Shown piece after piece: positions 12,377-53,928 of a stretch of 64,000 nt of DNA (its first letter is position 1; every line of letters begins with the position of its first letter). The notes under the pieces are model-generated. The model saw only the letters and a list, made by a program, of their open reading frames with translations, was not told the DNA's origin and ran no database searches. The translations under genes were made by a program, and so were the position numbers. The stretch is from Crassaminicella thermophila (GTDB lineage Bacteria > Bacillota > Clostridia > Peptostreptococcales > Thermotaleaceae): contig NZ_CP042243.1 in the NCBI RefSeq assembly GCF_008152325.1, positions 2,795,026 to 2,859,025 of the forward strand, read 5' to 3'.

Positions 12377-13571
12377 ATGTTTTATTTAGGTATTGATATT
12401 GGAAAAAACAATCATGTAGCTTCGCTAATAAATGAAAAAAAGGAAAAAAATTATTTTTAAGGCTTTTTCCTTTTCAAATACTACAAATGGTGGTGAAAGC
12501 TTAATTACTAAGTTAAACAATTTCATTAGATCTGTTAATGATGTTGAAATAGGTATGGAAGCTACTGGTCACTATTGGTTATCCATTTACTCATTTCTTG
12601 TGGAAAAAGGTTTTGTCATTCATGTTGTAAACCCTATCCAAACTGATGGTTGGCGTAAAGGTATTGAAATCAGAAAGCGTAAAACAGATATCATTGATTC
12701 TGTTTTAATTGCAGATCTTATTCGTTATGGTGATTTTCTGGAAACTTCCTTAGCCGATGAAAATACCATATCACTTCGCAACCTTTCTCGCTTTAGAAAC
12801 TATCTCATCAGTTCTATAGGTGACCTTAAACGTAAAACCATTTGTGTCTTAGACCAAGTTTTTCCTGAATATCAATCTATCTTTTCTGATATTTTTGGAC
12901 AAACATCAAAGGAAATTTTGCTTCATTTCAGCTCTCCAAGTGATTTCGAAAATATTTCATCTGAAAAGTTAGACAAAGTTTTATCTGAAATCACTATGAA
13001 AAAATTTGCTACTAATAAAATCAAACAACTTTCTCGTGTAGCTAAAAATTCTTTTGGTATAAGCTTTTGTTTAGATAGCTTTGCTCTTCAATTAAAACTA
13101 TTAATTGAGCAGATTAACTTTATTGAAAGTCAGGTCAAAGATATAGAAAAGCAAATAAACACTTTACTTGATAAAATCAATTCTCCTATTACTACAATAC
13201 CTGGTATTGGCAACGTAACAGCTGCAACTATACTTGGCGAAATAGGTGATATCTCAAGATTTTCAAACCCTTCAAAGCTTGTTGCTTATGCTGGAATTGA
13301 TGCTTCTGTTTCACAATCTGGTGAATATCAAAGTACAAATAACAAAATGAGTAAACGTGGATCGCCCTATCTTAGAAAGGCTCTCTTTAGTGCTGCTTTA
13401 GTTACCTCTAACTGTGACCCTGTTTTTAAAGCTTTTTACCAGAAGAAACGTTCAGAAGGAAAACATCACCTAACGGCTATTGGAGCTGTCGCTCGTAAAC
13501 TTTGCTACACAATTCATGCTATTTTAAAAAATAATTGTCCTTATGAGGTGAGACTACCTAATAACGAGTAA
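12377..13571 (+). pseudogene. IS110-family transposase, frameshifted near N-terminus (copy 2)
   Basis: The protein starts at ATG 12377 with the LGIDIGKNNH motif (first Asp of the DEDD site). The frame then breaks at two A-runs near 12436-12452. From ATG 12432 a continuous 379-residue frame runs to 13571. It holds the Glu of IGMEATGHYW, the Asp pair of RKTDIIDS and the C-terminal Transposase_20 domain (TTIPGIGNVTAATILGEIGD, SKRGSPYLRKAL). Two extra A in each run would explain the break. So the gene as written lacks the first catalytic Asp. It may be a consensus error, and the element could be active in reality. Confidence 0.8.
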
Positions 13572-20054: not shown

Positions 20055-21164
20055 CTATACGGTTTTAATGATTTCTAACACAAGTTTTGCACTATTTACT
20101 AAGTCTTCTATTTTTAAATGTTCTTCTAAAGTATGTGGCTTTTTCTCTCCAATTCCTAAATTTACAGCTTTGATACCATTTTCATTAAGTATATTTGTAT
20201 CACTACCCCCACCAGATGCCTGGGTAAAAGGCTTTAATCCAATGTTCTCACAAGCTTTTCTTACAGTATTTACAATTTCATCATTTTCATCAATCATAAA
20301 AGCACTATACATTCTCTCTGTATGAATTTCAACTTCTGCTCCAAATTCTTCAGCTGCCTTTTTTAAGCATTCAACCATGTGAGATGTTTGTCTATCTAAT
20401 TTTTCATTGTTTAAACTTCTTGCCTCTGCTTTTATTTCTACTTCTGGGCAAACGATATTAGTCACTTTGCCCCCTTGAATAACACCAATATTTGCTGTTG
20501 TTTCTTCATCAATTCTAAGCAGATTCATATTGCTTATTGCCTTTGCAGCCACTTGTATAGCACTAATTCCTTCTTCTGGGCATACACCTGCATGTGCTGG
20601 CTTACCTATAATTTTTGCATTGATTTTGTCTTGTGCAGGCCCTTTTACAATAATTTGTCCTGGGTCTCCACCACTATCCAATACAAAAGCACGTTTTGAT
20701 TCAATTTTTTTATAATCTAAATTTTTAGCACCAAACAATCCACCTTCTTCATAGATGCTAAATACAACTTCTATTAGCCCATGTTCTATATTATTTTCTT
20801 TTAATGCTTTTAACGCCTCTAAAACAGCAGCAATTCCTGCTTTGTTGTCTCCTCCAAGTACTGTTGTACCATCGCTATAGATTACACCATCTTTAATTAC
20901 TGGCTTAATTCCTACTCCAGGACTTACAGTATCCATATGACAGCTAAATAAAACTGGCTCACTATCTTTTGTTCCTTTTAACTTCGCAATAACATTACCT
21001 GTATCTGAACCTACTTTTTCTCCAGCATCATCTATATGTACTTCTAATCCAATATTTTTCAGTTCTTCTGCAATAAATTTAGCAAACTTCCCTTCACTTT
21101 TTGTAGGACTGTCTATTTGTACATACTTTAAAAATTCATTTACAACTCTTTCTTGATTAATCAT
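20055..21164 (-). CDS. M20-family PepT-like metallopeptidase
   Basis: 369 residues. Di-zinc motifs: SCHMDTVSPG, LGGDNKAG (bridging Asp) and YEEGGLFG, with the dimerisation domain inserted around 180-280. It likely cleaves small peptides or acyl-amino acids in the cytosol. ATG 21164 follows ATAGGAGGT; the reading frame is open further upstream but without a start site. It lies 58 bases downstream of an AbgT-family transporter on the same strand, so the pair may import and hydrolyse the same compounds. Confidence 0.85.
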   Translation of the reverse strand: MINQERVVNEFLKYVQIDSPTKSEGKFAKFIAEELKNIGLEVHIDDAGEKVGSDTGNVIAKLKGTKDSEPVLFSCHMDTVSPGVGIKPVIKDGVIYSDGTTVLGGDNKAGIAAVLEALKALKENNIEHGLIEVVFSIYEEGGLFGAKNLDYKKIESKRAFVLDSGGDPGQIIVKGPAQDKINAKIIGKPAHAGVCPEEGISAIQVAAKAISNMNLLRIDEETTANIGVIQGGKVTNIVCPEVEIKAEARSLNNEKLDRQTSHMVECLKKAAEEFGAEVEIHTERMYSAFMIDENDEIVNTVRKACENIGLKPFTQASGGGSDTNILNENGIKAVNLGIGEKKPHTLEEHLKIEDLVNSAKLVLEIIKTV

Positions 21165-21199
21165 TTTTTTACCTCCTATATGGAAATATTTTATAAAGA

Positions 21200-21222
21200 A
21201 AGGCACCAAAGGTGCCTTTTTA
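21200..21222. terminator. Hairpin between transporter and peptidase genes
   Basis: AAAGGCACC-AAA-GGTGCCTTT palindrome with T-rich flanks on both strands, right after the abgT stop. It would attenuate read-through into the peptidase gene. Confidence 0.7.
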
Positions 21223-22767
21223 TTACATAGGTAAATGAATAAATGCTTCTGGTCCAATTGGTAATCCTAATAAGTACCAACCTATCATTAATGCTGTCCA
21301 TCCTAATAAGAATGCTATAGAATATGGAAGCATCGTAGATATTAAAGTACCAATTCCTGTATCTTTGTCATATTTTTGTGCAAATACTACAATTACAGCA
21401 AAATATGACATAAGCGGTGAAATGATGTTTGTACAAGAGTCACCTATACGATATGCTAACTGTGTAAATTCTGGAGTAAATCCTAATTGATACATCATTG
21501 GTATAAATACTGGTGCCATAATCCCCCATTTAGCAGATGCTGATCCAATAAATAGGTTAATAAATCCAGCAACAATAATAAATGCAATTATTAATGGTAA
21601 TCCTGTAAATCCAATAGCCTTTAAGAAGTTTGCACCACTTACAGCTAAAATAATTCCTAAATTAGTATAAGAGAAGTATTTTATAAACTGAGCAGCAAAG
21701 AAACATAATACTAGATATCCTCCCATTGTTCCCATAGCTGTACTCATAGCTTTTATTACATCTTTATCATTTTTAATTGTTCCTGATACAATTCCATAAA
21801 CTAAACCTGGCACTAAGAAGAATAACATAATTGTTGGAACTAATCCATGATATATGAATTGTTTTAATTGTCCATCTGCTTTTAATGCTGCATTTTCAGG
21901 TAATGTCAACAATAACATAACTGCACCGAAAACAAGTAATGAAATCCCTGCAGCAATTAAACCTTTTCTTTCTTTTTGTGTAACTTCCATTGAGTCATCT
22001 GCATAGCCGCCTTTATATTCACCTAATCTTGGCTCAACTATTTTTTCAGTTACCCATGTGCCTAAAAGAGTAATTAAGAATGTAGATACAAACATAAAGT
22101 AATAGTTAGAAGTTGGTAAGATTGTTAAATCAATACCACCTGCAGATAAAGCTTCATTTGTAATCCCTGTTAATAATGGATCTAGAGTTCCTAGTAAAAG
22201 ATTCGCTGAGAATCCACCTGATACCCCTGCAAAAGCAGCTGCCATACCAGCTAATGGATGACGTTTAAAGCTTAAGAAAACAATAGCCCCTAGTGGAACT
22301 AATACAACGTATCCTGCATCTGATGCTATATTTGACATAACCCCTGCAAATACAACAACAGCAGTAATTAATTTTTTAGGTGTACTTAATACTAATTTCT
22401 TTAATGCAGTATTAATAAGTCCTGTTCCTTCAGCAACTCCTACTCCAAGCATAGCAACTAAAACTGTCCCTAATGGATGGAATCCAGTAAAATTCTCAGT
22501 TGCTGTATTGATCATATACCTTAATCCATCAGCATTTAATAGTGAAACTGCTTCAACCATTTTTTCTGTTTTGTACTTTGCATCATAAAAATTGACTGCT
22601 AAGCCTGCACGAGAAGCAATTTCCGAAACAATCATTACGGCAACTGACAATAAAATAAATATGGTAACTGGATGAGGCAATTTATTACCCACTGCTTCAA
22701 CTCCGTTAAGGAATTTGTTAAATAAACCATTTTTTTGTTGTTTAGAAGTTTTTGAAATACTTGCCAA
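21223..22767 (-). CDS. abgT: AbgT-family transporter
   Basis: 514 residues, about 11-13 membrane segments beginning near residue 33, with the conserved HPVTIFI, VMSNIASDAGYV and SASAKWGIMAPVF regions. Family members import p-aminobenzoyl-glutamate or export sulfonamides and antimetabolites. Pairing with an M20 peptidase matches abgABT logic, where dipeptide-like folate breakdown products are taken up and cut. The precise substrate is inferred. Confidence 0.88.
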   Translation of the reverse strand: MASISKTSKQQKNGLFNKFLNGVEAVGNKLPHPVTIFILLSVAVMIVSEIASRAGLAVNFYDAKYKTEKMVEAVSLLNADGLRYMINTATENFTGFHPLGTVLVAMLGVGVAEGTGLINTALKKLVLSTPKKLITAVVVFAGVMSNIASDAGYVVLVPLGAIVFLSFKRHPLAGMAAAFAGVSGGFSANLLLGTLDPLLTGITNEALSAGGIDLTILPTSNYYFMFVSTFLITLLGTWVTEKIVEPRLGEYKGGYADDSMEVTQKERKGLIAAGISLLVFGAVMLLLTLPENAALKADGQLKQFIYHGLVPTIMLFFLVPGLVYGIVSGTIKNDKDVIKAMSTAMGTMGGYLVLCFFAAQFIKYFSYTNLGIILAVSGANFLKAIGFTGLPLIIAFIIVAGFINLFIGSASAKWGIMAPVFIPMMYQLGFTPEFTQLAYRIGDSCTNIISPLMSYFAVIVVFAQKYDKDTGIGTLISTMLPYSIAFLLGWTALMIGWYLLGLPIGPEAFIHLPM

Positions 22768-24588: not shown

Positions 24589-24611
24589 TTGTGTGAAAAC
24601 ATAATATATGC

Positions 24612-24800
24612 ATTATGGTGTTGTTAAGCTAAAAGCTTACAACTTAAAAGGGAAGCTCGGTGAAAATCCGACACGGTCCCGCCACTGTAACGAGGAGTAC
24701 ATCTATCTTAATGCCACTGTTTTATAAAACAAACGGGAAGGTGATAGGTATACAATGAGTCGAAGTCAGGAGACCTGCCATAATGAATAATGCCGTTAAA
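24612..24800 (+). ncRNA. Cobalamin riboswitch 1
   Basis: Contains the conserved blocks in order: GGGAAGCTCGGTGAAAATCCGA, CGGTCCCGCCACTGTAA, AACGGGAAGG and the B12 box AGTCAGGAGACCTGCC (24764-24779). It precedes a transporter and a CoA-transferase, not a B12 gene, which is unusual. Confidence 0.95.
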
Positions 24801-24956: not shown

Positions 24957-26189
24957 ATGACTTTTAATGCTACGCATTTTATAACAAATCATTTTGTACT
25001 AATCTTTTTTTCTGTTGTAACAGGTTTGCTAGTCGGAAAAATTGAGTTTGGAAAATTTAAATTAGGTACTTCCGGGACCTTGTTTACAGGTCTTATTATG
25101 GGATGGTATATCTATAAAAAATACGCTTTTCCTTATGAGAATTTAGAAAATATACCTACTTACGCCACTAAAATCTTAAAATACGGCCTTGTTCCAAATG
25201 ATCTTTTTATATTTAATCTTATATTATTTGTTGCAGCTGTAGGTCTTTTAGCTTCTAAAGATCTTGGTAAAGTATTAAAAAAATACGGATTAAAGTTTGT
25301 ATTTCTAGGTTTTATTATTACATTCACAGGAGCAGCCATTTGCTATCTTATGTCCATACTAAATGAAGGTCAAAATCCATACGCTATTTCAGGAGTTTAC
25401 ACAGGTGCCTTAACAAGTTCACCAGGTTTAGCAGCTGCTTTAGAAACTGTTTCTTCCTATGGCAATAATGCAGAAAGTATGGTTGGCTTTGGATATGCAA
25501 TCGCTTATGTTCCTGGTGTTTTTATTGTAATTCTTTTCATGCAATTTCTTCCATATATTTTCAAAATGGATATAGAAACAGAAAAAGCTCTGTTTTTAAA
25601 AGAAATGAACTTCTCTGAAGGCCAATCAAAAGAAACAGAAGAAAAATTTGATACGATCGCCTTCGTATTCGCATGTCTTACAGGTTTTTTCCTAGGAAAG
25701 ATAAAAATTTATTTAGGTCCTACAATAAAATATTTTAGTCTCGGTTCTACTGGTGGTGTTCTTGTATCATCCCTTCTGTTAGGTTATGCAGGTAAAATAG
25801 GCCCTATGAACTTCAGAATGAGTAGTAGGATTTTAAATGCTATACAGGAAATATCCCTTTCATTCTTTCTATCTATGGTAGGGTTAAAGTACGGATATAC
25901 AACGATTCATTCTGCAACTGGCTCTGGAGCTTATTTAATCTACATATCTTTTCTGTGTGGACTTACTGCATTATTCGTAGGCTTTATCATTGGAAGATAT
26001 GTATTTAAAATCAATTGGATCATGCTTTCAGGAGCCCTTTGCGGTGGTATGACATCTACTCCAGGATTAGGAGCTGCCATAGAAGCTACAAAAAGTAATA
26101 ATGTTGCTGCTGGATATGGAGCTACTTATCCATTTGCTCTTCTAGGTATGATTCTATTCACTATATTGCTATATCGAATACCCGTATAA
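24957..26189 (+). CDS. AspT/YidE-type antiporter-like membrane protein
   Basis: 410 residues, about ten membrane helices in two homologous halves. Each half has the signature loop: GALTSSPGLAAALE near residue 150 and GGMTSTPGLGAAIEA near 370. This is the duplicated domain of the aspartate:alanine exchanger family, which moves dicarboxylates or amino acids. No TrkA-C domain is present. ATG 24957 follows AAGGAGG. It is first in a B12-riboswitch operon with a CoA-transferase, suggesting a dicarboxylate such as succinate as substrate (inference). Confidence 0.8.
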   Translation: MTFNATHFITNHFVLIFFSVVTGLLVGKIEFGKFKLGTSGTLFTGLIMGWYIYKKYAFPYENLENIPTYATKILKYGLVPNDLFIFNLILFVAAVGLLASKDLGKVLKKYGLKFVFLGFIITFTGAAICYLMSILNEGQNPYAISGVYTGALTSSPGLAAALETVSSYGNNAESMVGFGYAIAYVPGVFIVILFMQFLPYIFKMDIETEKALFLKEMNFSEGQSKETEEKFDTIAFVFACLTGFFLGKIKIYLGPTIKYFSLGSTGGVLVSSLLLGYAGKIGPMNFRMSSRILNAIQEISLSFFLSMVGLKYGYTTIHSATGSGAYLIYISFLCGLTALFVGFIIGRYVFKINWIMLSGALCGGMTSTPGLGAAIEATKSNNVAAGYGATYPFALLGMILFTILLYRIPV

Positions 26190-26226
26190 GCATTACTCAT
26201 AATAAATGATTCAAGGAGGAAATAAA

Positions 26227-27732
26227 ATGTTAGAAAATAGAATTAGAAACAAAACACTACAGAATAAAATCATGTCAGCTGATGAAGCAGCCCTGTTAAT
26301 CAAAGACGGAATGAATGTAGGTACTAGTGGATTCACCCCATCTGGATATCCAAAAGCTGTTCCTTTAGCATTAGCCAAAAGAGTAGAAACAACAGGAGAA
26401 AAGATAAAAATAGGACTATTCACTGGCGCTTCTGTTGGTGATGAATTAGACGGTTCTCTTTCACGATCAAAGATTATTAGAAAAAGACTTCCCTATCAAA
26501 CAAATGAAAGTTTGCGAAAATATATAAACGATGGGGAGTGTGAATATCTTGATATGCATCTTAGCCATGTTCCTCAGTATGCTCAATATGGCTTTTTAGG
26601 GAAATTAGATCTAGCCATCATTGAAGCTGTTGGCATAACAGAAGAAGGAGGTATTATTCCATCAACTTCAATCGGATGTTCTCCTACATTTATAAAAATA
26701 GCAGAAAAAGTAATCGTTGAAATTAATACAAGTCAGCCATTAGAATTAGAAGGAATGGCAGATATTTATATTCCAAATGATCCTCCTCACAGAAAACCTA
26801 TACCAATTACAAAAGTAAATGACAAAATTGGTACACCATATATTCCTTGTGATGTAAACAAAATAGCTGCGATCGTTGTAACAGACATAAAAGATAATGT
26901 AAGACCCCTTGCACCTATAGATGATATTTCTAAAACCATATCAGGCCATTTGATAGACTTTTTAGAACATGAAGTAAAGGTTGGAAGGCTCCCAAAAACT
27001 TTATTTCCTCTACAATCAGGTGTTGGAAGTGTTGCAAATGCAGTTTTAGGTGGTTTATTAGAATCAAGTTTTGAAAACCTTTTATGCTATACAGAAGTCA
27101 TTCAAGATTCTATGCTTGATCTTTTAGATTCTGGAAAAGCTTTGTTTGCATCTGGAACTTCCATTACCCCTTCTGAAGAAGGACTTATTCGTTTTAAAGA
27201 AAATATTAATTTTTATAAAGATAAAATTATTCTAAGACCGCAAGAGATTAGCAATCATCCTGAAATCATCCGAAGATTGGGTATTATCGCCATAAACACA
27301 GCCATTGAAGCTGATATCTATGGTAATATCAACTCTACCAATATAATGGGTACACGTATGATGAATGGTATAGGGGGGTCAGGAGATTTCACTAGAAATG
27401 CATATATCTCCATATTCACCACTCCATCAACTGCCAAAAACGGAGATATCTCTTCTATAGTCCCTATGGTTGCACATCATGATCATACTGAACATGATGT
27501 GATGGTACTCATTACAGAACAGGGAGTAGCTGATTTAAGAGGATTAAGTCCAAAAGAAAGGGCTAAACTTATTATAAATAATTGTGCACACCCTACTTAT
27601 CAGCCTATGTTAAAAGATTACTTTGAACGAGCACAAAAAAGTAAATTTAAACATACACCCCATATGCTAAGTGAAGCACTATCATGGCATGATCAATTCA
27701 TAAAAAATGGAACCATGAAAAGACTTCCTTAA
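26227..27732 (+). CDS. Acetyl-CoA hydrolase/transferase family CoA-transferase (Cat1-like)
   Basis: 501 residues. Family motifs: GxNxGxSGFTPSGYPK near the N-terminus, the probable catalytic Glu in CYTEVIQDSM, GIGGSGDFTRNA, and the C-terminal TEQGVADLRGLSP. Relatives transfer CoA between acetate, succinate, propionate or butyrate. ATG 26227 follows CAAGGAGGAAATAAA; an earlier in-frame ATT-type start lacks a site. It is cotranscribed with the transporter behind a cobalamin riboswitch, which hints at succinate/propionate metabolism linked to B12-dependent mutases. Exact substrates are not visible. Confidence 0.85.
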   Translation: MLENRIRNKTLQNKIMSADEAALLIKDGMNVGTSGFTPSGYPKAVPLALAKRVETTGEKIKIGLFTGASVGDELDGSLSRSKIIRKRLPYQTNESLRKYINDGECEYLDMHLSHVPQYAQYGFLGKLDLAIIEAVGITEEGGIIPSTSIGCSPTFIKIAEKVIVEINTSQPLELEGMADIYIPNDPPHRKPIPITKVNDKIGTPYIPCDVNKIAAIVVTDIKDNVRPLAPIDDISKTISGHLIDFLEHEVKVGRLPKTLFPLQSGVGSVANAVLGGLLESSFENLLCYTEVIQDSMLDLLDSGKALFASGTSITPSEEGLIRFKENINFYKDKIILRPQEISNHPEIIRRLGIIAINTAIEADIYGNINSTNIMGTRMMNGIGGSGDFTRNAYISIFTTPSTAKNGDISSIVPMVAHHDHTEHDVMVLITEQGVADLRGLSPKERAKLIINNCAHPTYQPMLKDYFERAQKSKFKHTPHMLSEALSWHDQFIKNGTMKRLP

Positions 27733-52910: not shown

Positions 52911-53159
52911 ATGATTTATGATCCATATTATCGTGATTTATATGAAAAGTATCAAAGATGTCTTTGGTATGTTTGTCAACTTCAATATATTACGTATCAA
53001 CAATATCAACAAATAAAAAAAATACCACCTTTTGCTACCCTCACTGATGAAGAATTAAAAAAAATACAAGACTTAGAAAAAGAACTAGGCAACAAATACT
53101 ATCTACTTGCATTCGAAAAAACTGTAAAGGATCTTATGCGTAGACTCAGAATAAACTAG
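52911..53159 (+). CDS. Hypothetical protein, Tyr/Gln-rich N-terminus
   Basis: 82 residues from ATG 52911 (AAAGGAGG nine bases upstream). N-terminal IYDPYYRDLYEKYQRC and YITYQQYQQI, then a helical TDEELKKIQDLEKELG part. No family recognised. Tyr/Gln-rich composition and the upstream CATATATTA box suggest a spore-coat type protein. Confidence 0.6.
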   Translation: MIYDPYYRDLYEKYQRCLWYVCQLQYITYQQYQQIKKIPPFATLTDEELKKIQDLEKELGNKYYLLAFEKTVKDLMRRLRIN

Positions 53160-53186
53160 AAAAAGAGCCTTATTTAGGCTCTTTTT
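53160..53186. terminator. Bidirectional terminator
   Basis: AAAAAGAGCCT-TATTT-AGGCTCTTTTT between convergent genes. Confidence 0.88.
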
Positions 53187-53191
53187 CTAGG

Positions 53192-53413
53192 CTAGTTTAT
53201 CTGTTTATATCTATAAGAGAAATTCGTATTTTGCTGTTTTTTTATAAATAACTGTTTAAGCTCATTCCAAAAAACTTTTTTTAATTCACTTTTATTTTTT
53301 ACATGCTTTTGAGCAAATATTTTCCTATAAACTTGATCTGCTTTTACATTTCCTGTTATATTTCTTTCTCTTCTTTCTCCAAAATTTTTATACATATCTA
53401 TATTTACAATCAT
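53192..53413 (-). CDS. Hypothetical protein behind cobalamin riboswitch 2
   Basis: 73 residues, basic and helical (NVKADQVYRKIFAQKH, KKVFWNELKQLFIKKQ). No domain recognised. ATG 53413 follows AAAGGGGAAATAAAA. Second ORF after the riboswitch at 53690-53893, 39 bases after the first one. No signal peptide or membrane helix. Confidence 0.45.
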   Translation of the reverse strand: MIVNIDMYKNFGERRERNITGNVKADQVYRKIFAQKHVKNKSELKKVFWNELKQLFIKKQQNTNFSYRYKQIN

Positions 53414-53452
53414 TTTTATTTCCCCTTTCAAATTAATAATCTATATACTCTT

Positions 53453-53593
53453 TTAATAGATAAAAATTTGATGGGGTGGTTCTGGAAAGTGGCCATAAGA
53501 AACAAATTTTAATAATGTTATATGATTATCCGTAAATATAGTATCTAATGAAAAATGTGTAAACTTACTGTCCTCATATAATAAATCATCCAT
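53453..53593 (-). CDS. Hypothetical 46-residue protein, first ORF after cobalamin riboswitch 2
   Basis: Starts at ATG 53593 with an excellent GGAAGGAGG site. Sequence begins MDDLLYEDSKFTHFSLD and ends HFPEPPHQIFIY. No family recognised. It is the first frame downstream of riboswitch and terminator, so it is either a B12-regulated small protein or a relic left between the riboswitch and its original target. Confidence 0.45.
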   Translation of the reverse strand: MDDLLYEDSKFTHFSLDTIFTDNHITLLKFVSYGHFPEPPHQIFIY

Positions 53594-53618
53594 TCTTATG
53601 CCTCCTTCCTAAATAATA

Positions 53619-53647
53619 AAGCCCTGTCAGAAGACAGGGCAAATAGA
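53619..53647 (-). terminator. Expression-platform terminator of riboswitch 2
   Basis: GCCCTGTC-TTCT-GACAGGGC on the minus strand followed by TTTATTATTT, downstream of the aptamer. Confidence 0.85.
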
Positions 53648-53689
53648 CTCATTATCACAAATAATAATGAATTTAGATAATTTGTTTCC

Positions 53690-53893
53690 TGGCCTTCCCT
53701 CCGAAGGTAGTCACTCACACAATAGGCAGGTCTCCTGACTTGTGATTCTTCCTACTCCCTCTCCTTCCCGTTTTCACAGTGGATTACTTGAGGTTTCGTC
53801 ATCACTTACAGTAGCGGGGGCTGTGTCGGATTCTCACCGAACTTCCCTATTAAACCTAAAAAAGGTACCTAATGCATCTACTATATTTACTTC
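53690..53893 (-). ncRNA. Cobalamin riboswitch 2
   Basis: Minus-strand blocks in order: GGGAAGTTCGGTGAGAATCCGA, CAGCCCCCGCTACTGTAA, AACGGGAAGG and the B12 box AAGTCAGGAGACCTGCC. It has its own promoter and terminator. The genes it reaches are two orphan small ORFs, not a recognised B12 gene. Confidence 0.95.
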
Positions 53894-53899
53894 CAGCTT

Positions 53900-53928
53900 A
53901 TTATACCACTAAGTGCCTAAATGGTCAA
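53900..53928 (-). promoter_or_regulatory. Promoter of riboswitch 2
   Basis: TTGACC (53928-53923), 17-base spacer, TATAAT (53905-53900), overlapping the stop region of the ABC ATPase gene. It shows that the riboswitch is transcribed independently. Confidence 0.75.

Follow-up and report, generated by a model that had tools for sequence, protein, structure and literature searches.

The unit described here lies on the reverse strand of a 64,000-nucleotide stretch of Crassaminicella thermophila DNA (contig NZ_CP042243.1), the whole of which is called the window. In the direction of transcription it has a promoter-like site, a cobalamin riboswitch, an intrinsic terminator, an open reading frame of 46 codons (ORF46), a second one of 73 codons (ORF73), and a two-way terminator that closes both the unit and the gene opposite (Table 1). 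An SsuABC/NMT1-like transporter (56384-53925, -) precedes the unit on this strand. Beyond ORF73 is the 82-codon ORF82 on the other strand (52911-53159, +), and past the two-way terminator and ORF82 are BtuF/BtuC/BtuD-like genes (52776-49949, -). A preliminary description of this DNA had reported a complete riboswitch with its own promoter and terminator, followed by 46- and 73-residue ORFs of no known family, and btuFCD-like genes behind an opposite gene and a terminator. We found the locus to be so arranged, and the span given there began at 53453, the end of ORF46, so that ORF73 falls outside it.

Table 1. Features of the riboswitch-ORF46-ORF73 unit, in window positions
Feature	Position	Strand	Basis or remark
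Promoter-like site of the riboswitch transcript, TTGACC-17-TATAAT	53900..53928	-	Consensus scan, 11/12
Cobalamin riboswitch aptamer	53708..53887	-	RF00174, 121.6 bits, model positions 1-189 of 189
Intrinsic terminator, riboswitch expression platform	53621..53640	-	Terminator scan; hairpin at matching place in relatives
Stem I, 5' arm: Shine-Dalgarno and spacer of ORF46, with the first base of its start	53593..53609	-	Pairs with 53484-53501
ORF46, proposed leader ORF and peptide with conserved DNxIxLxxFVSYGHFPEPP	53453..53593	-	10 tandem copies
Stem I, 3' arm: codons around VSYGHFP within ORF46	53484..53501	-	Recoding test
Stem II, 5' arm: final Pro codons and tail of ORF46	53460..53476	-	Pairs with 53422-53439
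Stem II, 3' arm: holds the ORF73 Shine-Dalgarno	53422..53439	-	Compensating changes across clades
ORF73, small protein, proposed output of the unit	53192..53413	-	11 loci, 9 of 16 family genomes
Two-way terminator, closes the unit and the opposite gene	53156..53190		15 bp; terminator scan

The riboswitch matches the full length of the RF00174 model, for which the gathering score is 31.5 bits. The whole genome has eight RF00174 matches, and the other one in the window (24599-24796, +) precedes a 410-residue membrane-protein-like ORF (24957-26189) and, after it, a 508-residue ORF (26206-27732) that by eye is CoA-transferase/hydrolase-like; neither is an obvious B12 gene. The promoter-like site has a TG ahead of its second hexamer and is the best of 13 such sites between 52700 and 54700, but because shuffled sequence is expected to give 11.1 it is weak evidence on its own. 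The terminator is made up of GCCCTGTC-TTCT-GACAGGGC followed by a T-rich tail, and the scan found four terminator-like sites against 0.8 expected. A hairpin is present at this position at all six loci where a riboswitch is linked to ORF46, and none was found before the unit in genome G013 or at the four loci that lack a riboswitch. When the window RNA was truncated within the terminator hairpin, the predicted fold paired the 5' arm of the hairpin with upstream sequence, which is a possible antiterminator. A terminator 3' of ORF73 is present in all ten ORF46-ORF73 pairs. ORF82 is conserved with 64-78% identity in G007, G004 and G010, lying about 20 kb from the ORF46 copies in the last two, and gave no family above cut-off in Pfam or NCBIfam. 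Elsewhere in the window, the ORF at 12432-13571 is, by its motifs, presumably an IS110-like transposase.

Both ORFs begin with ATG, preceded by AGGAAGGAGG in ORF46 and by GAAAGGGG in ORF73. Neither matched a Pfam or NCBIfam family above cut-off and ORF46 had no match in PHROGs. Against solved structures nothing for ORF46 fell below E 0.3, and for ORF73, whose homologues have 53-73 residues, the only matches below E 0.001 were two designed repeat proteins (E 3e-4 and 3.5e-4); thus, neither these searches nor those of Pfam and NCBIfam gave ORF73 a family or a natural solved structure. The AlphaFold model of ORF73 has low confidence (pLDDT 61) and found no structural match in the PDB; the protein is short and perhaps helical. 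In its ITLLKFVSYGHFP stretch ORF46 bears some resemblance to AlpA-like proteins, namely to their recognition helix and FPxP wing. The idea that ORF46 is a helix-turn-helix protein was dropped: its profile compared with 11 HTH_17 (PF12728) proteins, a set that excluded AlpA sequences, gave a probability of 0.14%, none of the ten ORF46 members had a Pfam match, and the single-sequence AlphaFold model is beta and not helical. That model is itself poor (pLDDT 63) and says little for or against a working protein.

The unit was found in one family of bacteria. ORF46 occurs in 8 and ORF73 in 9 of 59 related genomes, the genome of the window included, and as all 16 genomes of the family were searched these counts are also 8/16 and 9/16. 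When 345 genomes of the order were searched by profile, the counts were again 8 and 9, with one weak match outside the family for ORF46 and two for ORF73. In a class-level sample of 391 genomes, ORF73 was found in the window's own genome and as a weak match in G691 (E 4.5e-4, within a 194-codon frame), and there was no further carrier of the unit. Scanning genomes from 84,980 species by pattern returned six loci, namely five copies already known and one chance match, in records of Marinisporobacter MAGs, 'Lutibacter sp. B2' and Anaerophilus. No ORF46 was found in the viral contigs scanned and no ORF73 match in phage records. On inspection, the weak matches from the order and the pattern scan were judged to be chance: an ORF46-like match in G125 and one in a Phycisphaerales contig both lack GHFPEPP, the latter sharing just the search pattern FVSYGHFP itself, and the ORF73-like matches in G072 and G187 sit in a 526-codon frame and contain a stop codon, respectively. 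The tandem pairs amount to 10 loci in 8 of the 16 family genomes, G014 and G015 carrying two each, and an eleventh locus, in G013 of a fourth genus, has the riboswitch and ORF73 without ORF46. There (L039:6729-7116) no terminator was found ahead and a diverged ORF73 follows the riboswitch almost immediately, which suggests that the riboswitch controls ORF73 directly. About 3.5 kb from this unit is a match to the Clostridiales-2 small RNA (RF02937, 64.4 bits; L039:3195-3276).

In 6 of the 10 pairs (window, G007, G012, G014, G015 and G008; three genera) RF00174 lies ahead of ORF46 and nothing but the terminator region separates the two, and with G013 there are 7 riboswitch-linked loci out of 11 in four genera. 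In front of the other four pairs (G010, G004, and the second copies of G014 and G015, here G014b and G015b) no Rfam match reached the gathering score, and TTGA...TATAAT-like sequences can be seen there by eye. These four pairs mean that the link of the unit to B12 is not a strict one. By gene order the riboswitch-linked copies occur in at least two genome contexts, one with an SsuABC-like transporter (window, G007, G012, G014 and G015) and one with an M20/M42-type peptidase and an AbgT-type transporter (G008, where the genes were assigned by Pfam, and G013). Counterparts of the peptidase and AbgT-like genes are present in the window at 20055-22767.

Two further features of the neighbourhoods were observed. 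In G014 and G015 histidine kinases with a PocR sensory domain are convergent to the unit (L032:5012-6472 and L033:6830-8725); according to the portion of PMC9943018 used here, PocR, itself under antisense control by a B12 riboswitch, regulates B12-dependent propanediol metabolism in Listeria. A chemotaxis gene (CheW-receiver or MCP) lies downstream of three of the four riboswitch-free copies (L035:7485-8444, L036:5694-6629 and L038:5884-6777). Neither the kinase nor the chemotaxis gene gained further support as a partner of the unit, and both links were set aside.

The frame, ATG and ribosome-binding site of ORF46 are kept in all ten copies, and in all ten ORF46 and ORF73 have separate ribosome-binding sites at the usual spacing, with a gap of 26-50 nt between the ORFs. 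Residues D22, N23, I25 and L27, which lie outside the conserved stem arms described below, are invariant while their codons vary; the N-terminus and the tail vary in length and sequence. In five close pairs of copies, which are not fully independent of each other, changes fall at third positions in 42 of 98 cases in ORF46 (p 0.031) and 70 of 154 in ORF73 (p 0.0012). The pooled pN/pS ratio comes to 0.50 in ORF46 and 0.64 in ORF73, values to be read with the facts that many pairs are near synonymous saturation and that some ORF73 pairs exceed 1. By these sequence comparisons, coding constraint on top of RNA constraint appears real but modest.

To examine the RNA constraint we folded each of the ten units over a stretch that starts 25 nt ahead of ORF46 and ends 30 nt into ORF73. 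In all ten single-sequence folds the ribosome-binding site and spacer of ORF46 are paired with the codons for VSYGHFP (stem I), with duplex energies of -14.8 to -24.6 kcal/mol. When the motif was recoded synonymously 2000 times, with window genes supplying the codon usage for every species, only 2 to 45 recodings matched the native stem in each of the ten copies, and when the spacer between Shine-Dalgarno and ATG was shuffled, 0 to 52 of 2000 did so. Rare codons are kept in the stem: CAC in 9 of 10 copies, against 22 of 119 His codons over 20 genes of the window, and GGC in 6 of 10, against 52 of 601 Gly codons in the same genes. Tyr33 is changed only once, to Asn in G004, and its partner base changes with it, U-G in G010 being A-U in G004. 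Neither permutation by clade (rank 48 of 120) nor RNAalifold (covariation term 0.09) detected covariation in stem I; the VSYGHFP motif hardly varies, which leaves little room for covariation. In the MAFFT alignment the arms of both stems are displaced by one or two bases between clades, and RNAalifold run on it retained stem I alone (9 pairs, -3.2 kcal/mol). Shuffling pair partners for both stems together gave stem I no covariation support either: the number of pairs changed on both sides was reached by 150 of 500 shuffles and the covariation score by 23 of 500; 90.7% of cells are paired, a value reached by 9 of 500 shuffles, and structures slid along the sequence reached at most 62%. The folding energy of the whole unit is below the recoded mean in all ten copies (z -0.5 to -3.0), with 1 to 84 of 300 recodings reaching the native value; G014, where 84 do so, is unremarkable. 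The six core Shine-Dalgarno bases of ORF46 had a predicted pairing probability not above that of the recoded versions. A ribosome modelled at Tyr33 or Pro37 raised the mean access of the ORF46 start from 0.24 to 0.45-0.47; with the ribosome at Pro40 it was 0.29, and in G004 access went down.

In stem II the 3' end of ORF46 is paired with the region of the ORF73 ribosome-binding site. The pairing is present in all ten copies with letters that differ by clade, such as CCCC/GGGG and CCTCC/GGAGG. When arms from different clades were combined, 67 of 74 hybrids were weaker than both natives; with five clade representatives the native set ranked first of 120 permutations, and 0 to 43 of 2000 shuffles matched the native stem. 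Judged by this comparison, compensating changes maintain stem II. A ribosome modelled at codons 37-45 of the window copy raised the predicted access of the ORF73 site, 0.21 at the outset, to values of up to 0.98. With a ribosome near the end of ORF46 the predicted access is 0.81-0.98 in the window, G012, G015b and G014b, and 0.43-0.48 in G008, G010 and G004; there is little gain in G014 and G007. In G015 the predicted access is already 0.97 with no ribosome present, and placing one at codon 37 closes the site. With a second, wider definition of the site, the ten-copy mean rose from 0.44 to 0.55 at best.

Based on these findings we propose that the unit is a two-layer device for gene control in which ORF46 is a leader ORF, translated within an RNA fold, and ORF73 is the sole small-protein output. 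We put the probability of this reading at roughly one in two. The sequence match establishes the family of the switch, and this family together with the hairpin suggests that, in the first layer, a riboswitch of the adenosylcobalamin type would terminate transcription before ORF46 when B12 is high, so that the rest would be made under B12 shortage. The second layer would be the translated leader ORF46 embedded in its conserved fold. The comparisons support the fold itself, and from it we infer its working, the direction of control and the coupling, as follows. Stem I would mask the Shine-Dalgarno of ORF46 by means of the VSYGHFP codons, and stem II that of ORF73 by means of the end of ORF46. 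A ribosome loading on the nascent RNA would keep stem I apart, and one that sits or slows at the GHFPEPP end would disturb stem II as well, allowing ORF73, the presumed effector, to start. The least certain step is that the peptide DNxIxLxxFVSYGHFPEPP may act in the ribosome tunnel as a pausing signal that prolongs the ON state. Because the cassette of the second layer occurs without a riboswitch at four loci, it may answer to translation or another signal, with B12 control as an add-on. The G013 locus, with riboswitch and ORF73 and no ORF46, counts against the leader model. It is a tentative and, in our estimate, unlikely extension that ORF46 represents a new class of regulatory nascent peptide whose signal-dependent pause makes the ON state self-reinforcing, in which case the riboswitch ahead would make ORF73 need both low B12 and the signal of the peptide.

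The preliminary description had offered that the small proteins are new B12-related factors. That they belong to the riboswitch is supported by six of ten pairs in three genera, the G013 locus and at least two contexts; that they are two factors needs revision, as ORF46 looks mainly like a cis-acting leader ORF and ORF73 like the output. A form of that idea is nevertheless a possible, if doubtful, alternative, namely that both are working small proteins made under B12 shortage, with ORF46 in a trans-acting role such as that of an ORF73 partner and the stems only tuning translation. The tandem arrangement at 10 of 11 loci with a ribosome-binding site for each ORF, the invariant residues with varied codons beyond the stem arms, and the excess of third-position change in the five close pairs all fit it, but the best conserved part of ORF46 is the very part that pairs with its own ribosome-binding site and its N-terminus and tail vary; the poor ORF46 model weighs little either way. 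At the other extreme, the transcript under riboswitch control might be a regulatory RNA in which the ORFs are incidental or secondary. Stem I is strong and conserved, and a covariance model built from the ten copies recovered, in the 16 family genomes, those ten loci and one weak extra match, on the reverse strand at the G008 locus. Both frames, however, are open in all ten copies with ribosome-binding sites at the usual spacing, and residues outside the stem arms are maintained by synonymous change, which makes this reading improbable. In ermC-type switches, occupation of the 5' part of the leader ORF lets segments 2 and 3 pair. A switch of this type, or of that of mgtQ, would share the layout of 1:2 and 3:4 stems seen here, and in the window copy the AAATTTG of ORF46 can pair with the tail CAAATTT; yet the 2:3 pairing (-5.2 to -10.8 kcal/mol) is weaker than 3:4 (-12.8 to -16.8 kcal/mol) and is within about two standard deviations of shuffled values, so that we consider such a switch very improbable.

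The other possibility raised at the outset was that insertion of genes had separated the riboswitch from btuFCD, its former target, leaving a relic. Both the window and G007 do have genes of the btuFCD type on the 3' side of the unit, and in G005 related genes belong to what appears to be a cobU-cobS-cobC-btuF-btuC-btuD-cobB operon behind RF00174 (L118, G005:C3:48000-57000; gene names by eye). This G005 operon, whose btuFCD is of the window's type (BtuF 38% identical), was the nearest that the search for relatives with a riboswitch directly before btuF came to, but it is at a different locus and its switch is not directly adjacent to btuF. No protein matching BtuF or BtuC of the window was found in the 14-kb stretches around G012, G014, G015, G008 and G013, that is, at five of the seven riboswitch-linked loci; among the ten 14-kb stretches examined, BtuF and BtuC of the window's type adjoin the unit only in G007. 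BtuD-like ATPase matches of 26-33% occur in several stretches and are common to ABC transporters. Among the 16 family genomes a close relative of BtuF (77%) is present in G007 only, and the next ones (36-38%), in G004, G005 and G010, are on contigs away from any ORF46 copy. Because no BtuF or BtuC match was found in the 14 kb around most riboswitch-linked units and, among the 16 genomes, a close BtuF is confined to G007, the relic idea is unsupported. Moreover, ORF46 and ORF73 are open in all ten pairs and the unit shows signs of selection both on its RNA and on its reading frames, and we give separation by insertion hardly any credence.

Returning to the leader-ORF device that we prefer, a literature search found no earlier report of the riboswitch-ORF46-ORF73 unit, and the comparisons that follow draw on portions of the reports cited. 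The nearest published case found is ppe2 of M. tuberculosis, in which a B12 riboswitch controls a translated upstream ORF, uPPE2, that is needed for the next gene; an upstream ORF has likewise been reported with the B12 riboswitch of metE (PMC11260477). As in ppe2, an upstream ORF is conserved behind a B12 riboswitch here, at 6 of the 10 tandem loci. However, the ppe2 switch as described there acts on the translation start of the upstream ORF, whereas here a terminator separates the switch from ORF46, and uPPE2 overlaps its gene by AUGA and works mainly by termination-reinitiation, whereas here the ORFs stand apart in all ten pairs; unlike ppe2, a second conserved fold here would hide both start sites (PMC11260477). 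The unit resembles SecM/secA and other arrest leaders in having a short upstream ORF with a conserved C-terminal peptide and a stem, here stem II, that masks the Shine-Dalgarno of the next gene (PMC10987492). The freeing of the next site by a ribosome at the motif, as predicted for ORF73, is strong in four of ten copies, partial in three, small in two and contrary in G015. The targets of SecM-type leaders are genes of the Sec/YidC pathway, with no riboswitch mentioned in the portion of PMC10987492 drawn on, and stalling in ORF46 is only putative; we do not claim membership of ORF46 in the arrest-peptide class. The small ORF mgtQ ahead of mgtB in Salmonella similarly overlaps stems 1:2 and 3:4, of which 3:4 masks the next ribosome-binding site, but it employs a 2:3 alternative that is too weak here to form a stable helix (PMC8092293). 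In CruR (DUF2946) the nascent protein of an upstream ORF also controls downstream genes and has a conserved C-terminal PP motif; CruR, though, works by Rho termination and has a CXXC copper site and RAPP, while ORF46 has no CXXC and has PEPP (PMC9426467).

Cobalamin riboswitch regulons, in the part of PMC3766115 considered, comprise B12 synthesis, transport of B12 or its precursors, cobalt transport and B12-independent isozymes. The unit shares with them RF00174, presumed OFF with B12, but by sequence its output ORF73 fits none of the classes listed (PMC3766115). We file it as a variant of riboswitch plus leader-ORF control. Where B12 riboswitches usually mark genes for the synthesis, uptake or bypass of B12, this would be a compact device that stacks metabolite sensing on a leader-ORF gate. 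If it works as proposed, ORF46 is a candidate new regulatory peptide, a dedicated small protein at B12 shortage becomes testable, and the link between riboswitch and translated upstream ORF known from metE and ppe2 of M. tuberculosis (PMC11260477) reaches the Clostridia in another layout.
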